Shown: positions 26,425-35,681 of the stretch, piece by piece
How the letters are laid out: every line of letters begins with the position of its first letter
Position numbering within the stretch: the stretch's first letter is position 1
Assembly: GCA_913020715.1 (NCBI GenBank)
Contig: CAJVZH010000006.1
Span: 1-64,000 of the forward strand
DNA: 64,000 nucleotides
Reading direction: 5' to 3'
From: an uncultured Gammaproteobacteria bacterium
Lineage (GTDB): Bacteria; Pseudomonadota; Gammaproteobacteria; PS1; Pseudothioglobaceae
Notes under the pieces: generated by a model
Seen by the model: only the letters and a program-made list of their open reading frames with translations
What the model was told of the DNA's origin: nothing
Database searches by the model: none
Made by a program: the position numbers and the translations under genes

Positions 26425-27567
26425 TTAATTTTTGTGATCGGTACTAAAGCGCACTTCAAGTTTTTTGGAATACCGTGACATTGAGTAAAGAAATACCCAC
26501 ATAGTCATTGTTACAAAGACAAAGCCCTCAGTCTCACGACCCATCCAATGAATGTCGTTTGCGGTCATGTTAACCATGGCAAGCATGTCCATCAAGCCAA
26601 TAATTAGCACTAGTGTTGTATCCTTGAATAGCGAAATAGACGAACCCACTAAATTTGGAATCGATATTTTCAGTGCTTGAGGCAGGATAATAAGCGCATT
26701 TTTTTGAACGTAGTTAAGGCCGATCGCATCAGCCGCTTCGTATTGCCCAGTTGGAATAGCTTGTAGGCCACCACGAACGACCTCAGCAAAATAAGCTGCC
26801 TGGAACAATGTAATAGCAACTAACGCCCTTAGGAGTTTATCGAAGTCAACACCTCCCGTGAAAAACAAGGGCAAGACAAACGACGCCATAAAGAGAATAG
26901 TAATTAAAGGTACTGCGCGAATAAACTCAATATAAATCGTTGAAAAGAAATTGATTACTTTTAGGTCGGACTGCCTGCCTAGTGCCAGCATTACTCCTAT
27001 TGGAAAAGAAATAATAATGCCGACAGAGGCAATAATCAGAGTTAGCATCAAACCACCCCACTGGTGTGTTTCAACCTCTTCTAAACCAAAAACACCACCA
27101 GCTATTAAAAAGAAAGAGGCGATAGGAAAGCCAATAATCATTGCAAGAAAAAATCTGCTCTTGTGCTGATAGTTTCGAACTAGGCGCGCAATCACAAAAA
27201 GCAGTGCAGCCATAGCAAACACAATATCCACTCTCCAGACCAAATCACGCGGGTAGAAGCCATAGACAAACATGTCGAACTTTTCGTATATGAATGGCCA
27301 GCAGGCTGCTGAGCGGCCGCAAGTTACATTGGTAGCCATTACTTCTCCAAACTCAAATCCTAGAAAGCTAAATTCGCCGAAATTAAAGTTGGCGTCGAAA
27401 ATCATCCAATTCAACATTGGCGGGATGGTAACGTAAAGCATGTACAGTGCAGCAAGTGTTAAGCCCACATTAACTTTTGAAGAAAATAGGTTTGCTCTTA
27501 ACCAGTGGACAATGCCTACCTGGCTAATTGGCGGCTTTCTAAGTTCTTGTGATTCGAATACAGCCAT
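26425..27567 (-). CDS. aapM: Amino-acid ABC transporter permease AapM
   Basis: A 380-residue inner-membrane permease, longer than HisM-type permeases because of an N-terminal membrane region (about residues 35-165) before the transport core. The core carries [14 protein letters not shown] and the ATPase-docking (EAA) loop [13 protein letters not shown]. Size and architecture match AapM of the general L-amino-acid permease. Only 1 base separates it from aapQ. Confidence 0.9.
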
Positions 27568-27568
27568 T

Positions 27569-28777
27569 TTATCGCCCCTTGATACTCATTTTCTTATTAA
27601 CAATATTGAGTAGTAGTGATATACATAAGGAAATTACCAAATACACGGCCATCGTCATTCCCAGAATTTCAACCGCCTGTCCAACCTGGTTGAGTACAGT
27701 TCCACCAAAGGCTGCCATTAGTTCGGGGTAGCCAATGGCAGTTGCCAATGAAGAGTTTTTGGTTAAATTCAGATATTGATTAATTGTTGGCGGGATGGCC
27801 ACTCTTAGGGCTTGCGGCAAGACCACCAATTTGAGTGATTGTGCCTGGGTGAGGCCAAGGGCAGCTGCAGCTTCTTTTTGACCCTTATCGACCGCCTCAA
27901 TTCCTGAACGAATGGCTTCGGCAATATAAGTGGCGGTATAAACGCTAAGTGAAAAAGTAAGTGCTAAAAATTCTGGAGAAAATGTTTTCCCTCCTTGAAA
28001 ATTAAAGCCTTTCAGCGAGGGGTAGTCAAGATGCATTGGTGAGCCCAATAGTAAAAAAACAACCAGCGGTAAGCCCAAAACCAATCCAATTGTGTATCCA
28101 ATAGTGCGAGTGTGGATGCCGGTCTCGTCGTGTTTCTTCTTAAAGTGGCGCCTCATGAAAACCGTTAATATAATGCCGAGAACAAAAGCAATCAGTACCC
28201 AGGCAAATCCTGGTTCAGATACGGGTTCTGGGACATAGATACCGCGCTTGTTAATGAAGACCGAGTCAAAGAAGTTAAAACTGCCACGGGGAGAGGGTAA
28301 GGTAATTAGGGCAATGTTGTACCAAAATAAGATTTGGATAAGAATTGGGATGTTTCTAAAGAGCTCAATGTAGCCCCCTGCTAGCTTGGAAATTAACCAG
28401 TTGTTTGAGAGTCTGGCAATACCAATGATAAGGCCAATAATGGTTGCAAAAACAATACCCACAACTGCAACCACTAGAGTGTTAATCAAGCCAACATAAA
28501 AAACTCGTAGGTTGGAGTGCTCGGGTGTGTAGGCGATCATGGATTCGTTAATATCGAAGCCCGCCCTATTCGATAAAAAAGCAAACCCTGTGTGAATCTC
28601 ACGTGCCTCAATATTGGCTATCAAGTTATCAATGCCGGAATAAAAAACAAAAGCAATAATTAGTAAAGTGATAACTTGAAACGCAATAGCTCTCGTTTCG
28701 TTGTTATTAAGAAAGGAGATTATGGTGTTATCTTTTTTCATGATGGGGTTTAACTGGGTGAAGAAAGTGTTTAACAA
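27569..28777 (-). CDS. aapQ: Amino-acid ABC transporter permease AapQ
   Basis: A 402-residue permease paired with AapM. It has an N-terminal membrane helix (about 30-50), a long periplasmic segment, then the transport core with ELFRNIPILIQILFWYN and the docking loop GQKEAAAALGLTQ. Its long inserted region between core helices is typical of AapQ. Separated from aapJ by 148 bases containing an intrinsic terminator. Confidence 0.9.
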   Translation of the reverse strand: MLNTFFTQLNPIMKKDNTIISFLNNNETRAIAFQVITLLIIAFVFYSGIDNLIANIEAREIHTGFAFLSNRAGFDINESMIAYTPEHSNLRVFYVGLINTLVVAVVGIVFATIIGLIIGIARLSNNWLISKLAGGYIELFRNIPILIQILFWYNIALITLPSPRGSFNFFDSVFINKRGIYVPEPVSEPGFAWVLIAFVLGIILTVFMRRHFKKKHDETGIHTRTIGYTIGLVLGLPLVVFLLLGSPMHLDYPSLKGFNFQGGKTFSPEFLALTFSLSVYTATYIAEAIRSGIEAVDKGQKEAAAALGLTQAQSLKLVVLPQALRVAIPPTINQYLNLTKNSSLATAIGYPELMAAFGGTVLNQVGQAVEILGMTMAVYLVISLCISLLLNIVNKKMSIKGR

Positions 28778-28871
28778 TTAACTATCAAGTGCGACAAGTG
28801 TCTCAAATTATTACAATCAGTATACGTTTAATCAAATTCACTGAATTAAAACTTGAATTATTAAATAGTAA

Positions 28872-28904
28872 ATAAAAAACCAGCCCACAAAGAGTGGGCT
28901 GGTT
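28872..28904 (-). terminator. Intrinsic terminator between aapJ and aapQ
   Basis: On the minus strand a perfect 10-base stem AACCAGCCCA / TGGGCTGGTT with a 7-base loop is followed by a T-rich tail. It sits 22 bases after the aapJ stop. It should end most transcripts after the binding-protein gene and let a minority read into aapQMP. Confidence 0.9.
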
Positions 28905-28925
28905 AGGTGTTACTATGTTGGTTGG

Positions 28926-29933
28926 TTATCTAAACGGAGCTGAGTATAAGATACCACCATTTGTCCATAGTGCATTTACACCACGAGCAATACCGATTGG
29001 CGTGCTAAGACCGATGTTGCGCTCGAAGCTTTCAGCGTAGTTACCAACTTGAGCAATGATGTTGTAAGTCCAGTCTGAACTTAGACCAACATACTCATGT
29101 GTGTTGCCAGAACGACCCATTAAGCGCTCACGCTCAGGGTTGTTAGAAACAACATCAACAGTGGCACTAGTTACGCCGATTTCTTCCGCAGTAATCATGG
29201 CATTTAGAGACCAACGAACAATGTTAAACCACTGGTCGTCGCCTTGGCGCACTACAGGGCCTAAAGGCTCTTTTGAGATGATTTCAGGCAATACAACATG
29301 CTCTGAAGGGTCATTAGTTGCTGTACGCTGGGAATACAATCCAGAGGCGTCAGTTGTCAACACATCACAACGACCCGCGTCATAGTTCGCAGTTGTTTGA
29401 GCATTCGTATCAGATACTACTGAAGTGTATTCAATGCCATTTGATTTTGCCCAGTCAGCAAGATTAAGCTCAGTTGTTGTTCCTGCTTGAATACAAACAG
29501 CAGCACCACCAAGGTCATAGGCTGTATCTATACCAAGTGAGGCTTTGACCATAAATCCTTGACCGTCGTAGTAGTTAACACCAGCAAAGTTAAGACCTAG
29601 TGAAGCATCACGAGTAATCGTCCATGTTGTGTTTCTAGATAACATGTCAATTTCACCTGATTGCAACGCAGTGAATCTTTCTTTGGCTGTTAATGGTACG
29701 AATGTAACCGCGGTTGCATCGCCAAGTGTTGCAGCAGCTACAGCGCGACACACGTCAACGTCAATACCTGTCCAAGTACCTGATGAATCAGCTGCAGAAA
29801 AACCCGCAAGACCTTTTGATACACCACATTTAACGCTGCCATTGGCTTGAACGTCCTGAAGTGTTCCTGCTTGCACAGCAAACGCACTAAGCGCTAAAAC
29901 TGAAGCAACAGAGAATTTTACTAATTGTTTCAT
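28926..29933 (-). CDS. aapJ: General L-amino-acid ABC transporter substrate-binding protein AapJ
   Basis: Periplasmic binding protein for broad polar amino-acid uptake. 335 residues with a signal peptide (1-22, cleavage after VQA), then the type-II binding fold of the SBP_bac_3 family: GFSAADSSGTWTGIDVDVCRAVAAA, the ligand-contact region MLSRNTTWT, and the AapJ-type long C-terminal part. A strong ribosome site (AAAGGGGAA) precedes the ATG, in keeping with high expression. First gene of aapJQMP. Confidence 0.93.
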   Translation of the reverse strand: MKQLVKFSVASVLALSAFAVQAGTLQDVQANGSVKCGVSKGLAGFSAADSSGTWTGIDVDVCRAVAAATLGDATAVTFVPLTAKERFTALQSGEIDMLSRNTTWTITRDASLGLNFAGVNYYDGQGFMVKASLGIDTAYDLGGAAVCIQAGTTTELNLADWAKSNGIEYTSVVSDTNAQTTANYDAGRCDVLTTDASGLYSQRTATNDPSEHVVLPEIISKEPLGPVVRQGDDQWFNIVRWSLNAMITAEEIGVTSATVDVVSNNPERERLMGRSGNTHEYVGLSSDWTYNIIAQVGNYAESFERNIGLSTPIGIARGVNALWTNGGILYSAPFR

Positions 29934-30405
29934 TTATTTCCCCTTTGTATTATTAAAAGTTTACTAATCCTGAGGATCCCCCCTAGGAATAACGAAGTTT
30001 ATATTAAGCATGGTTCGGTAGCAAACTAGTTAAACTACAAAAGAATAAAATTAATAATTAGAAGACATATTCTAATAAAAACAAAGAGTTTATTCTGTTT
30101 TTTTATTAAGAATTATTATTTTTCAAACACTAAAGTTAGTTTAATTCACTAATTATTGAAATAATTATAACTTAATTAGCACAAAATACCTTGCAGTCAA
30201 CCCTTAATTAGACAAGGACTTCATTACTTGAGGCCGCTTCACTCTGTGTAGACAAAAACACCTATAAATACATTAAAATCAACCAGTTATTTAATTTTTA
30301 GTTATTTATTACAACCACTTATTGTAAATCAAGCAGCCAACTACAGTTATTTATTACTACTACTGGTATAAAATAACTAAATATTGACACTATCTTGCTT
30401 CAAAA
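29934..30405. other. Divergent regulatory region aapJ / HTH-nadE
   Basis: 472 bases with no gene on either strand that I can support. The aapJ side holds its ribosome site and AT-rich leader, including a short ATTAATTATT/AATAATT-rich stretch. The nadE side holds four copies of AGTTATTT and a possible -10 (TATAAA, 30367-30372), described separately. The length is unusual for this compact window and suggests dual regulation. Confidence 0.6.
30285..30378 (+). repeat. Four AGTTATTT motifs upstream of HTH-nadE (candidate operator)
   Basis: AGTTATTT occurs at 30285-30292, 30300-30307 and 30345-30352, and inverted (AAATAACT) at 30371-30378. The second and third copies extend to an exact 13-base repeat AGTTATTTATTAC, 45 bases apart. 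The inverted copy overlaps a possible -10 box TATAAA at 30367-30372, 33-38 bases before the ATG. Local AT-richness raises the chance of random occurrence, but the exact 13-mer is notable. Confidence 0.5.
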
Positions 30406-32277
30406 ATGAACAGTAAAACCTCTGAATACCTTGATATGGTACGCCTTAAGACGGGTTTGTCGGATTACAAAATTGCTAAAAAATACGACATTAATCAGTC
30501 CAATCTGAGCAAATACAGTTCTGGTAAGGCGGCTTTGAGTGAAACACACGCTTGGCTGTTTGCAAACATCCTTGATCTGGATCCAGCAGAAATTGTTGCA
30601 AATACCAAACTTGAGCATGCGTTAAATTCTGACAATAAAACTAAAGCCAAATTTTGGCAGGAACAGCTCAATAAAATATTAGCCGATACACAACCTATTA
30701 ATATTCAAATCGTCCAATTTCACGCTATTGTTGGCAATATCTCCAATAACGCAAGGGAAATCCTTGATATGAGTATCGAGGCGCACGATCTTGGTGCGCA
30801 TATGATTGTTTTTCCAGAATTGGCACTAACAGGCTACCCTCCAGAAGACCTTTTGTTGCGAGCGGGGTTTATCAAGCAGGTTGAGTTTCATATTAACGAG
30901 CTGTGCAAGAAACTACCCTCTTCAATTATGGTTGTGTTTGGCGCGCCAAGCTCTGCCAATGAAGCCCTTTATAACAGCGCTTACTGCATTCATAAAAACA
31001 AAGTGATGCACGTTTATCACAAACGATCCCTGCCCAATTATGGTGTATTTGATGAAAAACGCTACTTTAGCCCAGGCGATAGAGCGCTTGTTTTTGAACA
31101 CCAAGGCAGAAATATTGGTGTGTTAATTTGTGAAGATGCCTGGGTAGGCAACCCCCTAGAAAAATCCTGCCAAGCCAATGCTGATTTGATTATTAGCTTA
31201 AATGCCTCTCCTTTTCAATCGGGCAAGTCTCAACAGCGCTTTGACCTTTATCGCCAGCACGCACTTAAATGGGGTGTCGATTTGCTTTATGTTAATTCCG
31301 TAGGCGGGCAAGACGAGCTGGTATTTGATGGCGGCTCTTTTATGATGAGCGCCAAAGGCAAGATAATTCAGCAACTGCCATTTTTTGAGAGTTGCCAGGT
31401 GTTGCATAGCAAACCTTGCACCCATACTGATCTCTCTGAGACTGCTTTAACCTACAAAGCACTTGTGCTTGCTACGAAAGATTACGTCTGTGGCAATGGC
31501 TTTGCTGGTTCTCTGATTGGCCTTTCTGGCGGTATTGATTCTGCACTCACGCTTGCAATAGCAGTTGACGCTCTTGGTGCTGAAAACGTCAGTGCGGTCA
31601 TGATGCCTTATCAGTTCACTTCTGACATGAGTCTCGAGGATGCTGAAGGGCAATCGAAGACTCAAGGCGTTCATTATTCGAGTATCGATATCCATCAAAT
31701 GGTTACGGCCTTTAATATGTCTTTGTTTGATTTGTTCGATGGTGCCGAAAAAGACACTACTGAAGAAAATATTCAAGCCAGAGTTCGTGGGGTATTGCTC
31801 ATGGCCTTATCTAATAAATGGCATAAGATGGTGTTGGCGACTGGCAATAAATCTGAAATGTCTGTGGGTTACGCTACCTTGTATGGCGACATGTGCGGCG
31901 GCTTTGCGCCGCTTAAAGACATCTCTAAAACGCTTGTTTATCAACTAGCTAACTATCGTAATTCGCTCTCTAAAGTCATTCCCGAGCGAGTGATTACCAG
32001 GCTCCCTTCTGCCGAACTGGCGCCCGATCAAGTTGACCAAGACTCGCTTCCGCCGTACGATGCTCTAGATGATATTCTAATGCGATTTGTTGAAATGAAA
32101 CTTTCTGTTGAAGAAATTGCTCAACACGGACATGACGTGGAACTGGTTAGAAAAGTCACTTCAATGGTGCTTAAGAACGAATACAAAAGACGCCAATCAG
32201 CCCCTGGACCAAAAGTCAGTAGTAATGCCTTTGGCAAGGAAAGACGCTATCCAATGACTTCTAAGTTCAAACCTTAG
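30406..32277 (+). CDS. nadE: NAD synthetase (glutamine-dependent) with N-terminal DUF3693/XRE-like HTH domain
   Basis: Makes NAD+ from deamido-NAD+, ATP and glutamine-derived ammonia. 623 residues, about 80 longer than proteobacterial NadE. Residues 1-92 are a helix-turn-helix region (YLDMVRLKTGLSDYKIAKKY, then NQSNLSKYSSGKAALS) resembling phage-type DUF3693 repressors. Residues from about 98 form the nitrilase-type glutaminase with Glu138, Lys206 and Cys242 (GVLICEDAW). The synthetase domain has the PP-loop SGGIDS at 374-379. No ATG, GTG or TTG codon occurs between codons 70 and 121, so NadE cannot start separately without losing its first strand. The fusion is therefore real as sequenced. 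Single-gene unit, divergent from aapJ; downstream genes converge. Confidence 0.93.
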   Translation: MNSKTSEYLDMVRLKTGLSDYKIAKKYDINQSNLSKYSSGKAALSETHAWLFANILDLDPAEIVANTKLEHALNSDNKTKAKFWQEQLNKILADTQPINIQIVQFHAIVGNISNNAREILDMSIEAHDLGAHMIVFPELALTGYPPEDLLLRAGFIKQVEFHINELCKKLPSSIMVVFGAPSSANEALYNSAYCIHKNKVMHVYHKRSLPNYGVFDEKRYFSPGDRALVFEHQGRNIGVLICEDAWVGNPLEKSCQANADLIISLNASPFQSGKSQQRFDLYRQHALKWGVDLLYVNSVGGQDELVFDGGSFMMSAKGKIIQQLPFFESCQVLHSKPCTHTDLSETALTYKALVLATKDYVCGNGFAGSLIGLSGGIDSALTLAIAVDALGAENVSAVMMPYQFTSDMSLEDAEGQSKTQGVHYSSIDIHQMVTAFNMSLFDLFDGAEKDTTEENIQARVRGVLLMALSNKWHKMVLATGNKSEMSVGYATLYGDMCGGFAPLKDISKTLVYQLANYRNSLSKVIPERVITRLPSAELAPDQVDQDSLPPYDALDDILMRFVEMKLSVEEIAQHGHDVELVRKVTSMVLKNEYKRRQSAPGPKVSSNAFGKERRYPMTSKFKP

Positions 32278-32287
32278 GGCCTTCACT

Positions 32288-33028
32288 TTATTTTGGGTGT
32301 TGTAGGTAAGGAGTGAATTTGATTTCAAGATACTTCACCAATTGAGTGACTAAAAAATTAAGAACCAAATACAACAAACCTGCAATCAAGAAAATTTCTA
32401 CTGGCGTCCAGTATTTAGCAATAATTTGCTTGGCAATGCCTGTAATTTCCATCAAAGTGATAATACTAACAAGGGAGGTTCCCTTGACCATTAAAATCAT
32501 TTCGTTGCCATAAGCTGGCAGTGCCTGCCTAAAAGCAATAGGAAAGATGATTCGTCGATAAAGCAACAGCCCGCTCATTCCCATTGCTCGAGCAGATTCA
32601 ATTTGGCCGTATGGCACCGATTGCAAGCCGCCCCGAATTATTTCCGCTGTGTAGGCTCCTGTGTTTAGCGTTAGCGCAAGAATACCACACCAATAAGCCT
32701 CTCTTAAAAATGGCCACAGAAAGCTTTGTTGAACGAATTCAAATTGCCCTAAGCCGTAATAAAGTAAAAATACTTGCACCAAAAGTGGCGAACCCCTAAA
32801 GTAAAAAACATAACCACGGGAAAATCCATTAAGCAGCCTATTATCAGAAAGGCGCATCATTGCAATTCCTAATGCCAAAAATAAGCCAGCCAATAACGAG
32901 ATTGAAACCAACTCAATGGTTAACGGCACACCTTTAAGTAGGTCTGGAAGCTTCTCACACATTAAATTAAAGTTAAGCCAACTCTCTCTGCCGGGCAACC
33001 CTTCACACATTTGATAATAACTTGACAT
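32288..33028 (-). CDS. Polar amino-acid ABC transporter permease (HisM/ArtM/OccM type)
   Basis: A 246-residue inner-membrane permease with about five hydrophobic segments, the conserved YFRGSPLLVQVFLLYYG segment and the ATPase-docking loop GQIESARAMGMSG. Second of a pair of short permeases, 2 bases after its partner. The set resembles histidine/arginine/opine importers. The exact ligand is not readable from sequence. Confidence 0.88.
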   Translation of the reverse strand: MSSYYQMCEGLPGRESWLNFNLMCEKLPDLLKGVPLTIELVSISLLAGLFLALGIAMMRLSDNRLLNGFSRGYVFYFRGSPLLVQVFLLYYGLGQFEFVQQSFLWPFLREAYWCGILALTLNTGAYTAEIIRGGLQSVPYGQIESARAMGMSGLLLYRRIIFPIAFRQALPAYGNEMILMVKGTSLVSIITLMEITGIAKQIIAKYWTPVEIFLIAGLLYLVLNFLVTQLVKYLEIKFTPYLQHPK

Positions 33029-33030
33029 AG

Positions 33031-33750
33031 TTACGCCCTCCTCACGCCTTTATTGGCCCAACTTTCTGCACTATTCAGTGCTTTTGAAGAAACTGTTGTG
33101 AGGGTCAAATATAAGAGTGCGGCAAAAATATAGAAAACAAACGGCTCTTTGGTGTTGCCTGCAGCAATCTGAGCGGTGCGCATAATTTCAGCAATTGCCA
33201 TGACACTGATCAGGGCCGTGTCTTTTAATGTTAACTGCCAGACATTGCCTAAACCCGGCAACGCATAGCGCAAGACTTGCGGTATGAGAACGCGATGAAA
33301 TATTTGGAATTTGGACATGCCAACAGACTTCGCTGCCTCTACCTGGCCCTTTGGTACGGCCAAGAAAGAGCCGCGTATTACCTCTGTAGAATATGCACCA
33401 GAAACAAGTCCAACCGCAATTGCGGCAGTTAAAAAAACCGGAAATTCAAAATACTCATGGTAATCAAACAGACTTTTTGCTGCAGCCATTAGGGCGTTAT
33501 TAAAGCCAAAGAAAAACAAGTAAATAACCAGCAATTCGGGTATGCCTCTTATAACGGTTGTGTATGTATTGCCGAACGATCTGATAATAACACTGTGTGA
33601 CAGTTTGGCCATTGTGCCAAAAACAGAAAACACCAGGCCAATAGCCATTGCTGAAACACTAACCAGAAGTGTTATAAACATACCAGCAAGCATTTCATCA
33701 CCCCAGCCGGTGTCGTCAAACGCAAGAAAGCTTAAGAAGTCCATAAGCAA
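33031..33750 (-). CDS. Polar amino-acid ABC transporter permease (HisQ/ArtQ/OccQ type)
   Basis: A 239-residue permease with the segment TVIRGIPELLVIYLFFFG and docking loop GQVEAAKSVGMSK. It abuts the ATPase gene with no intergenic base and forms the heterodimeric channel with the downstream permease. Family-level identification only; the neighbouring dehydrogenase genes suggest an opine- or imino-acid-like ligand. Confidence 0.88.
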   Translation of the reverse strand: MLMDFLSFLAFDDTGWGDEMLAGMFITLLVSVSAMAIGLVFSVFGTMAKLSHSVIIRSFGNTYTTVIRGIPELLVIYLFFFGFNNALMAAAKSLFDYHEYFEFPVFLTAAIAVGLVSGAYSTEVIRGSFLAVPKGQVEAAKSVGMSKFQIFHRVLIPQVLRYALPGLGNVWQLTLKDTALISVMAIAEIMRTAQIAAGNTKEPFVFYIFAALLYLTLTTVSSKALNSAESWANKGVRRA

Positions 33751-34521
33751 CTACCCCTCAAGATTTGAAGCCAAAAACTGCTTTAAGCGCTCAGATTTCG
33801 GGGAGTTAAAGATTTCGCTTGGCGAGCCCTGCTCTTCAATGCGGCCTTGATGAAGAAAGATCACTTTGGATGCCACTTCTTTTGCAAAGCCCATTTCATG
33901 GGTAACGACAATCATTGTTCTCCCTTCTTCTGCAAGTGATTTCATCACCTTTAAAACTTCTCCAACTAATTCCGGGTCGAGCGATGATGTTGGCTCATCA
34001 AATAGTAAAATATCGGGCTTGACCGCTAAAGCTCTAGCAATAGCCACTCTTTGTTGTTGACCGCCAGATAGATTTGATGGGTACTGATCGGCTTTTTCAG
34101 TAATACCAACTTTTGTCAGTAATTCCAAACCGAGCTTTGTGGCCTCAATTTTGTTAATTTTTTGTACGTGTACTGGCGCTTCAATGACATTTTGCAATAC
34201 TGTCATGTGCGACCAAAGATTAAAGCTTTGAAAAACCATTGCAAGTTTTGTTCTAATACGATCAACTTGCTGGTGATCTGTTGGGCAGGGCTGGCCTTTT
34301 TTGTCTTGCCCCATCTTGATCAACTCGCCATTGACCCAAACCTCGCCTGAATTTGGTGTTTCGAGTAAGTTGATGCAGCGTAGTAAGGTGCTTTTTCCAG
34401 AACCACTGGAGCCGATGATGCAAATTACATCACCCTGGTTGGCTGTAAGAGAGACATCTTTAATAACCTCCAGATCGCCAAAAGATTTTACTAGATGTTT
34501 AATTTCTAAAGTATTTGCCAT
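33751..34521 (-). CDS. Polar amino-acid ABC transporter ATP-binding protein (HisP type)
   Basis: 256 residues with Walker [10 protein letters not shown], the longer HisP-like insertion before the Q-loop, [11 protein letters not shown], signature [15 protein letters not shown], Walker [14 protein letters not shown] and the switch histidine in VVTHEMGFA. It heads the membrane part of the second importer and lies after an intrinsic terminator that separates it from its binding-protein gene. Confidence 0.9.
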
Positions 34522-34604
34522 TTTTTTCTCGTGTTAATTATTGCTGCTATTTTAACAAACAGAGTCTTGAAGGCCCTGTCTAAGTAATTACTACTGTTTT
34601 GGAT

Positions 34605-34631
34605 AAAAAAGCGGCCACAAAATGTGACCGC
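34605..34631 (-). terminator. Intrinsic terminator between binding-protein and ATPase genes
   Basis: On the minus strand the stem GCGGTCACA / TGTGGCCGC (9 bases with one G-T wobble), 3-base loop, then six U residues. It lies 24 bases after the stop of the binding-protein gene, the same design as in the aap operon. Confidence 0.88.
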
Positions 34632-34654
34632 CTCTATAAAAAATAACTCAGTAA

Positions 34655-35476
34655 TTACATTGAGATATCTTTACCGAACCATTTAACAAAGTGAGCTGCC
34701 AATGTACCGTCAGCTCTTGCTTCATTAATTGCTTTGTTGAACATAGCCTTAAGGTCTCTATCGGCTTGACGCAAACCAACACCTACACCAGGACCAAAAG
34801 CACCACCGCCCAATTTAGGGCCGAAGAATACTACTTTAGAGCCGCTTGAGCTGTCCATAAAGTCTTGAAGAGAGCTAGTGTCAGAAAGTGCAGCGTCGAT
34901 TCTACCCGCAGCCAAATCTAATTGTAGGTTTTGCTGTGTGTCGTACACTTTAACAGTTACCATACCACCCAAGGCTTCTCTTACGAAGTTTTCATGAGTT
35001 GTAGAACCTTGAACACCAACTACACCGCCGTTAAGCGCCGCTCTTAGTGCATCAATCAAATCCGAATGACCTAGGTCTAGGTTAACGCTGCCAGTCTCGC
35101 CCATTTGTGCAAGAATAGAAGAGTTGCGTGCCGCGAATGAAGCCGGCTCTGTTGCGTAACCTTGAGAAAAGTCAATAACTTGCATTCTTTCAGAAGTAAT
35201 TGACATACCCGCCATAATAACGTCGTATTTGCCGTTTTGAAGGGCTGGAATAATACCGTCCCAATCTTGAGCAACAAATTCACAAGTTACGCCCATTCTG
35301 TCACACAAGTCGTTTGCCAAGTCAATCTCAGCACCCTCAAGCTCGCCAGAAGCGCTTGTACCATTCCACGGGGGGTATGCACCCTCAGTACCAATTTTAA
35401 CTGTTGACCAAGCACCACCAAAGGCACTGGTCGCCATTGAGACGCCAAGTAGAGTCATCACTAGTTTTTTATTCAT
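34655..35476 (-). CDS. Periplasmic polar amino-acid binding protein (HisJ/ArgT/OccT family)
   Basis: A 273-residue SBP_bac_3 protein. I place the start at the ATG at 35476 because AAGGAG lies 7 bases upstream and the product then begins with a normal signal peptide (1-20, ending SAFGGA). A longer frame to 35518 would add an unlikely 14 residues. The ligand-site pattern TEGAYPPWNG, DLANDLCDRMG and VIMAGMSITSERMQVIDFS is that of basic amino-acid and opine-binding proteins. First gene of the second importer. Divergent from the FAD-oxidase genes. Confidence 0.9.
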   Translation of the reverse strand: MNKKLVMTLLGVSMATSAFGGAWSTVKIGTEGAYPPWNGTSASGELEGAEIDLANDLCDRMGVTCEFVAQDWDGIIPALQNGKYDVIMAGMSITSERMQVIDFSQGYATEPASFAARNSSILAQMGETGSVNLDLGHSDLIDALRAALNGGVVGVQGSTTHENFVREALGGMVTVKVYDTQQNLQLDLAAGRIDAALSDTSSLQDFMDSSSGSKVVFFGPKLGGGAFGPGVGVGLRQADRDLKAMFNKAINEARADGTLAAHFVKWFGKDISM

Positions 35477-35681
35477 TTTTTTCTCCTTTTTATGAAATAA
35501 AATATTCTGTAAAAGCAATATATAATCGCGTTTTCTTCTGCGATTTTATGAATATACCATAAACATTATCATAAATATAGTATTAATTCCTATAAAATCT
35601 AAAACGTTGCATTCAAGCCTTGTTCTATCAACACAAGGTCTTTGTTATATAATTAATTCATCCTGTGGGTTGTAGAAAAGA

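Follow-up and report, generated by a model that had tools for sequence, protein, structure and literature searches.

A predicted helix-turn-helix domain on the NAD synthetase of SUP05 bacteria and a conserved repeat array in the nadE promoter

The nadE locus and the two parts of its product

The window, i.e. the whole 64,000-nucleotide stretch of DNA that was analysed, contains on its plus strand one uninterrupted frame of 623 codons, as described in the original prediction, encoding a putative bifunctional NAD synthetase (NadE) with an N-terminal helix-turn-helix (HTH) domain (Table 1). The frame starts with ATG and is open only from position 30388, with an in-frame TGA at 30385. The absence of ATG, GTG and TTG had previously been stated for codons 70 to 121, which is right and even understated, as the start-free gap spans codons 45 to 121, the nearest such codons being a TTG at codon 44 and an ATG at codon 122. 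A separate NadE start within the frame was thereby ruled out here. In the 69 loci that could be fetched from the 71 genomes carrying the fusion (G069 and G076 are missing), no internal start is common to all, codons 112, 119 and 122 being starts in some of them. nadE is flanked by two clusters resembling amino-acid ABC transporter genes at 26425-29933 and 32288-35518, both on the minus strand, and a gene for a substrate-binding protein (28926-29933, minus strand) is oriented divergently to it.

Table 1. Predicted features of the nadE locus in the window
Feature	Position	Strand	Remarks
nadE with N-terminal HTH, predicted bifunctional glutamine-dependent NAD synthetase, 623 aa	30406..32277	+	
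HTH domain and tail helix, residues 1-95, XRE/lambda-repressor-type fold	30406..30690	+	95-residue segment predicted as six helices, pLDDT 95.5
Nitrilase-type glutaminase domain, residues ~97-340	30694..31425	+	Pfam, NCBIfam, 5kha alignment
NAD synthetase domain, residues ~341-623	31426..32274	+	Pfam, NCBIfam, NadE structures
Putative operator O1, CTGGTATAAAATAACTA	30363..30379	+	best of the 64-kb window by either matrix, 22.3 and 17.8 bits
Putative operator O2, CAGTTATTTATTACTAC	30344..30360	+	12.2 bits, third in the window; symmetric matrix 9.8 bits, fifth
Putative operator O3, TAGTTATTTATTACAAC	30299..30315	+	16.0 bits, second in the window; symmetric matrix 10.4 bits, fourth
IHF-like sequence AATCAACCAGTTA (WATCAANNNNTTR), upstream of the repeat array	30277..30289	+	in 51/69 loci, mostly near -130

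In the enzyme part, Pfam places CN_hydrolase at residues 108-328 and NAD_synthase at residues 351-597, and the NCBIfam model NF010588 (NAD+ synthase) matches residues 97-622 with 707 bits against a cut-off of 479. The order of a glutaminase followed by a synthase domain, both above curated cut-offs, assigns the protein to the NadE-Gln class. Residues E138, K206 and C242, which we take to be the glutaminase triad of this NadE, are present and were unchanged across the 34 sequences of the structure alignment (the window protein and 33 of the 49 full-length named loci), and the SGGIDS motif of the synthetase was found as well. The sequence thus predicts a complete glutamine-dependent NadE with its catalytic residues, as had been proposed. 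The closest solved NadE by sequence is that of Acinetobacter baumannii (5kha), and the full-length model (pLDDT 83.1) matched NadE-Gln structures, 5kha best. The window protein belongs to the same enzyme family as 5kha and the NadE-Gln of Burkholderia thailandensis (4f4h) over ~520 residues, but those chains (549 and 565 residues) have no room for an HTH domain, and the alignment with 5kha starts only at residue 99. In the home genome (1.55 Mb, 95% complete), the window protein is the sole full NadE match.

The N-terminal segment had been described as XRE/DUF3693-like. Searches with profile HMMs bore out the first part of this description, as HTH_3 of Pfam matched residues 12-63 with 27.2 bits for the segment alone and 23.1 bits for the whole protein (cut-off 23), whereas DUF3693 was absent from the Pfam matches at E values up to 1. 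Of all families, phrog_4441, annotated as 'HTH DNA binding protein', matched the N-terminus best, over residues 4-90 (E 1.6e-14). Core and tail together (residues 4-91) match the small HTH proteins of phrog_4441 and phrog_638 (E 1.6e-14 and 1.5e-10), which are small families of 98 and 145 positions without NadE. The predicted structure has a repressor-type HTH fold, and the top 50 Foldseek matches of the HTH model were mainly HTH repressors, including ImmR, the lambda and 434 repressors, C.Esp1396I, HipB and SinR, with probabilities of 0.91-1.00 and weak E values (best 0.07, none at 0.001). On the basis of the HTH_3 profile and this fold, the segment can be classed as an XRE/lambda-repressor-type HTH domain.

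Distribution of the fusion and selection on its parts

The order is represented by 83 genomes from one family and 11 genera. In 71 of them nadE could be recovered with its N-terminal end, and all 71 carry the HTH domain, which answers the question, raised with the original prediction, of whether relatives share the fusion, and which excludes a chance fusion or an assembly artefact of one MAG. The other 12 genomes (completeness 54-87%) gave a C-terminal fragment in one case, only weak CN-hydrolase matches in five cases and nothing in six. Named records of the GTDB collection account for 56 loci and include Thioglobus, Pseudothioglobus, Ruthia, Ruthturnera, Thiodubiliella and Bathymodiolus symbionts; the remaining ones are labelled gammaproteobacteria, Proteobacteria, 'SUP05 cluster' or 'PS1 clade', and there is one Thiotrichales and one Piscirickettsiaceae. 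The nadE copies of L095, L096 and L097 are broken by stops or frame changes, which may be assembly errors or real decay.

In 15 relatives from the same class but outside the order, NadE carries no HTH domain, none of the matches beginning before query residue 81. A sample of 369 genomes of the class, searched with the HTH segment as query, contained no fusion outside the family, and in a sample of 398 genomes of the phylum no non-family NadE begins before query residue 71 among the matches listed. According to these sequences, the predicted HTH-NadE fusion characterises a single family, SUP05 (Thioglobus, Pseudothioglobus, Ruthia, Thiodubiliella), whose members occur in large numbers in the ocean and as symbionts. 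The class sample yielded two non-family matches, a free-standing HTH protein in G415 and a chance match in G335; the latter was rejected as a second fusion, since it sits inside an MnmG-like frame (named by eye). A long frame in G039 was likewise rejected, as its N-terminal extension looks un-HTH-like by eye and the HTH segment found no match in this genome. The G415 protein (L048) has 126 aa, is of the phrog_638/4441 type and has a C-terminal stretch that appears hydrophobic by eye.

Conservation and dN/dS were calculated for the 63 of 69 loci with at least 600 aa, six broken or short ones (L017, L018, L095, L096, L097 and L098) being left out, and dN/dS pairs were limited to a whole-gene dS of 0.05-1.5, which left 185 pairs, 41 of which involve a reduced genome. 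In the 144 pairs that do not, which are not independent and in which dS is partly saturated, the median dN/dS was 0.050 for the HTH domain, 0.093 for the tail, 0.131 for the glutaminase and 0.074 for the synthetase. The value for the HTH domain was below that of the glutaminase in 136 and below that of the synthetase in 106 of these pairs; in 38 pairs the HTH domain was less constrained than the synthetase. In all six pairs among four genomes of ~1.02 Mb, dN/dS of the HTH domain was between 0.63 and 1.02, with 0.05-0.09 for the glutaminase and 0.08-0.15 for the synthetase. The protein difference of the HTH domain relative to NadE had a median ratio of 6.7 in these six reduced pairs, compared to 0.59 in the 1711 other pairs (27 of them above 1). 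The four reduced genomes represent a natural experiment in which the putative regulatory half decays and, judged by these values, is being lost, while the enzyme half is kept and stays under selection.

These data bear on the possibility that a captured regulator gene, fused by chance, left the HTH domain behind as a passive remnant, which plays no regulatory role and is kept only since nadE lost its own start. The start-free codons 45 to 121 would agree with such a history, and so would the drift of the HTH domain in the four reduced genomes with retention of the frame, which presumably stays open because NadE has no other start. We nevertheless consider this explanation most improbable, as the HTH domain is strongly constrained elsewhere in the family, its INQSNLSKY..SG stretch does not vary among the 34 sequences aligned (the four reduced genomes not being among them), and the repeat array described below is conserved at the promoter. 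The reduced genomes rather show how a passive HTH domain looks.

Repeats in the nadE promoter

The upstream regions of the 21 members of the genus are variable save for a block of ~110 bp before the start codon, and the same repeated words are present upstream of nadE in the other genera. The repeat unit in the nadE promoter is the 17-bp inverted repeat TAGKTA-N5-TAMCTA. Within 150 bp upstream of the 69 loci, the strict form occurs in 96 copies distributed over 56 loci and is absent from 13, counts which ignore kinship and are inflated by related sequences. First-order Markov resampling gave a mean of 1.8 and a maximum of 6 copies (200 sets), and the frequency in the remainder of the loci would predict 0.6 copies. 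The number of copies peaks at a spacer of 5; a spacer of 4 gave 13 copies and any other spacer at most 5. In a leave-genus-out test, which is not fully blind because the repeat was first spotted and defined by eye on the same upstream sequences, a site above the 95% null level (9.8 bits) was found in all 69 loci, the lowest reaching 11.5 bits and two falling under the 99% level of 12.7 bits. In the HTH-less outgroup, whose base composition was not matched to that of the family loci, none of the 12 loci available from the 15 class relatives exceeded the 95% level, the best value being -0.4 bits.

The sites are located at about -107, -62 and -43 from the nadE start in this genus and at -91 and -55 in most loci of other genera. 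Of the three putative operators in the window, O2 fell under the threshold with the leave-genus-out matrix, and with the symmetric matrix two other places in the window outrank O3 and O2. The site runs into TATAAT in 41 of the 48 loci of other genera, and GGTATAAAATAACTA is common to 20 of the 21 loci of this genus. A scan of 29930-30500 with the sigma-70 consensus found no promoter (shuffles gave 3.3), and for this reason repression rather than activation was inferred from the position of the sites. The IHF-like word upstream of the array, for which resampling gave a mean of 1.5 loci, follows WATCAANNNNTTR, which we take to be the IHF consensus. In the four reduced genomes the upstream site is altered, being largely gone in L094, and the site at the -10 region has largely been retained, perhaps owing to its overlap with this region.

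A free-standing HTH homologue of 84 aa without NadE, 49-51% identical to the fused domain, was found in G059 (L099:3505-3756, contig C117). Its last residues are FWTH, the corresponding position in the fusions being FWQEQL. At -46 of its start lies GTGGTATTTTATATCTA, which deviates by one mismatch from the strict pattern and scored 15.8 bits, the best value in 8 kb and one that none of 1000 resampled sequences reached; under the symmetric matrix it was second-best in its 8 kb, with 6 of 1000 as good. This is a single case and the sole pairing of HTH domain and site without nadE, and at the level of sequence it ties the predicted HTH domain to the site independently of nadE. The homologue may be related to the source from which the fused domain was derived. 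No matches were found in the viral contigs and plasmids searched, nor in phages with the free-standing homologue as query; the sole match of a tblastn search of phages was a 33%-identical repressor (E 2e-3) in two records of one phage. The G059 gene is located ~0.2 kb upstream of a gene that by eye resembles that for the large subunit of ribonucleotide reductase.

In 16 whole genomes, WGKTANNNNNTAACTA matched 48 times, 20 of the matches being located at nadE (in 13 genomes), while the reversed control matched 284 times; in G051, G066 and G071 there were zero strict matches at nadE. When the spacer was restricted to A/T, 20 of 23 rows from the 16 genomes were at nadE, and the remaining three were one palindrome at convergent gene ends (two rows, both strands) and one match inside a coding frame. 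Sequence by itself is no proof of which protein occupies the sites, and the upstream repeats might be owned by another regulator, the HTH domain acting elsewhere or serving as an oligomerisation or anchoring domain. This is unlikely, however, in view of the fact that the sites accompany the HTH-bearing nadE and were found at none of the 12 HTH-less loci, that one is also present at the promoter of the free-standing homologue, that they recur only at nadE in the 16 genomes, and that decay of the upstream site accompanies decay of the HTH domain.

A homologue of the substrate-binding protein is encoded divergently upstream of nadE in 42 of the 56 named loci, as might be expected if NadE acted through its HTH domain as an activator, or switched the divergent operon of the amino-acid ABC transporter together with nadE. 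We regard such a role as quite improbable: the distance between site and nadE start is roughly fixed, and two loci with full flanks, L166 and L176 (taken as L078 and L073), gave no transporter match, yet have kept the site.

Proposed control of NadE and its targets

We propose that the protein is probably both a glutamine-dependent NAD synthetase and an autorepressor, whose XRE-type HTH domain would bind the TAGKTA-N5-TAMCTA array in its own promoter. Excess NadE would occupy the array through the HTH domain, and the bound protein would block the nadE promoter, the sites overlapping or adjoining the likely -10 region, so that the NadE level would be set by feedback through NadE itself. In addition to binding and repression, we infer that the oligomeric enzyme may bridge several sites, aided by DNA bending at the IHF-like word, and that binding of a substrate or product may tune the DNA binding of HTH-NadE. 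NadE is octameric in Mycobacterium. The conserved promoter repeats suggest self-control of nadE throughout this group of ocean bacteria and symbionts of clams and mussels.

According to the accessible part of PMC12421817, there are four kinds of NAD repressors, NadR, NiaR, NrtR and NadQ, and that of PMC8249747 names BirA, NadR, PepA, PutA and PyrH as trigger enzymes of E. coli, PutA being a factor with a single target and no binding outside the putA-putP spacer. In the portion of PMC5343134 available to us, autoregulation of BirA is restricted to Desulfovibrionales within the Proteobacteria examined. The window protein likewise combines an enzyme and a predicted DNA-binding domain in one chain, and HTH-NadE is best read as a new architecture among trigger enzymes such as BirA, NadR and PutA. 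It resembles NadR of Enterobacterales, a regulator of NAD genes in which an N-terminal HTH domain is joined to enzyme domains of the NAD pathway (accessible parts of PMC12421817 and PMC5343134). NadR combines its HTH domain with NMN adenylyltransferase and ribosylnicotinamide kinase, neither of which was found in the window protein by Pfam or NCBIfam searches, and its targets are nadB, nadA, pnuC and pncB, whereas the enzyme here is NadE and the sole recurring target seen is nadE itself. With BirA and PutA it would share the principle of a catalytic protein with a DNA-binding domain controlling genes of its own pathway, but the enzymes and the DNA-binding families are different.

No description of HTH-NadE was found in the literature searched, by title or abstract, among the matches listed, nor was one of the control of NAD supply in SUP05. 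The available text of PMC3376133, which deals with the NAD synthetase family, contains neither 'helix-turn-helix' nor 'DNA-binding', and that of PMC5520373, which compares Ruthia and Vesicomyosocius, does not contain 'NAD synth'. More tentatively, HTH-NadE could be a further type of regulator of NAD biosynthesis besides NadR, NiaR, NrtR and NadQ, in which the last enzyme of the pathway would be its own sensor, responding to occupancy by NaAD, ATP, glutamine or NAD; such a system would be SUP05-wide, built once from a repressor of the mobile-element type and now in the course of being dismantled in those symbiont genomes that are most reduced. With an essential enzyme and a likely regulator in one protein and, as far as seen, one target, HTH-NadE would offer a compact and testable model of enzyme-level feedback.

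Both nadA and nadC are present in all 16 whole genomes. Upstream of nadA, no site above 9.8 bits was found in any of them; upstream of nadC, 3 of 16 exceeded this value (10.4, 10.6 and 12.0 bits at -57, -234 and -228, respectively), with ~1.6 expected. A wider NAD regulon was rejected, since nadA is without sites in all 16 genomes and nadC without a conserved one, although HTH-NadE may have a weak or minor link to nadC. HTH-NadE looks like a single-target system, with nadE as the recurring target among the 16 genomes. The idea of a self-regulating enzyme, as originally put forward, thus gains from the selected fusion and the conserved array at nadE, as far as sequence data can tell, but its extension to the repression of other genes finds no support in the 16 genomes searched, where the strict site recurs only at nadE. 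A sub-threshold word, AAGCAATAAAATAACTA, which contains one half-site and scores 6.5 bits, lies ~200-245 bp upstream of nadC in L217, L222 and L228.
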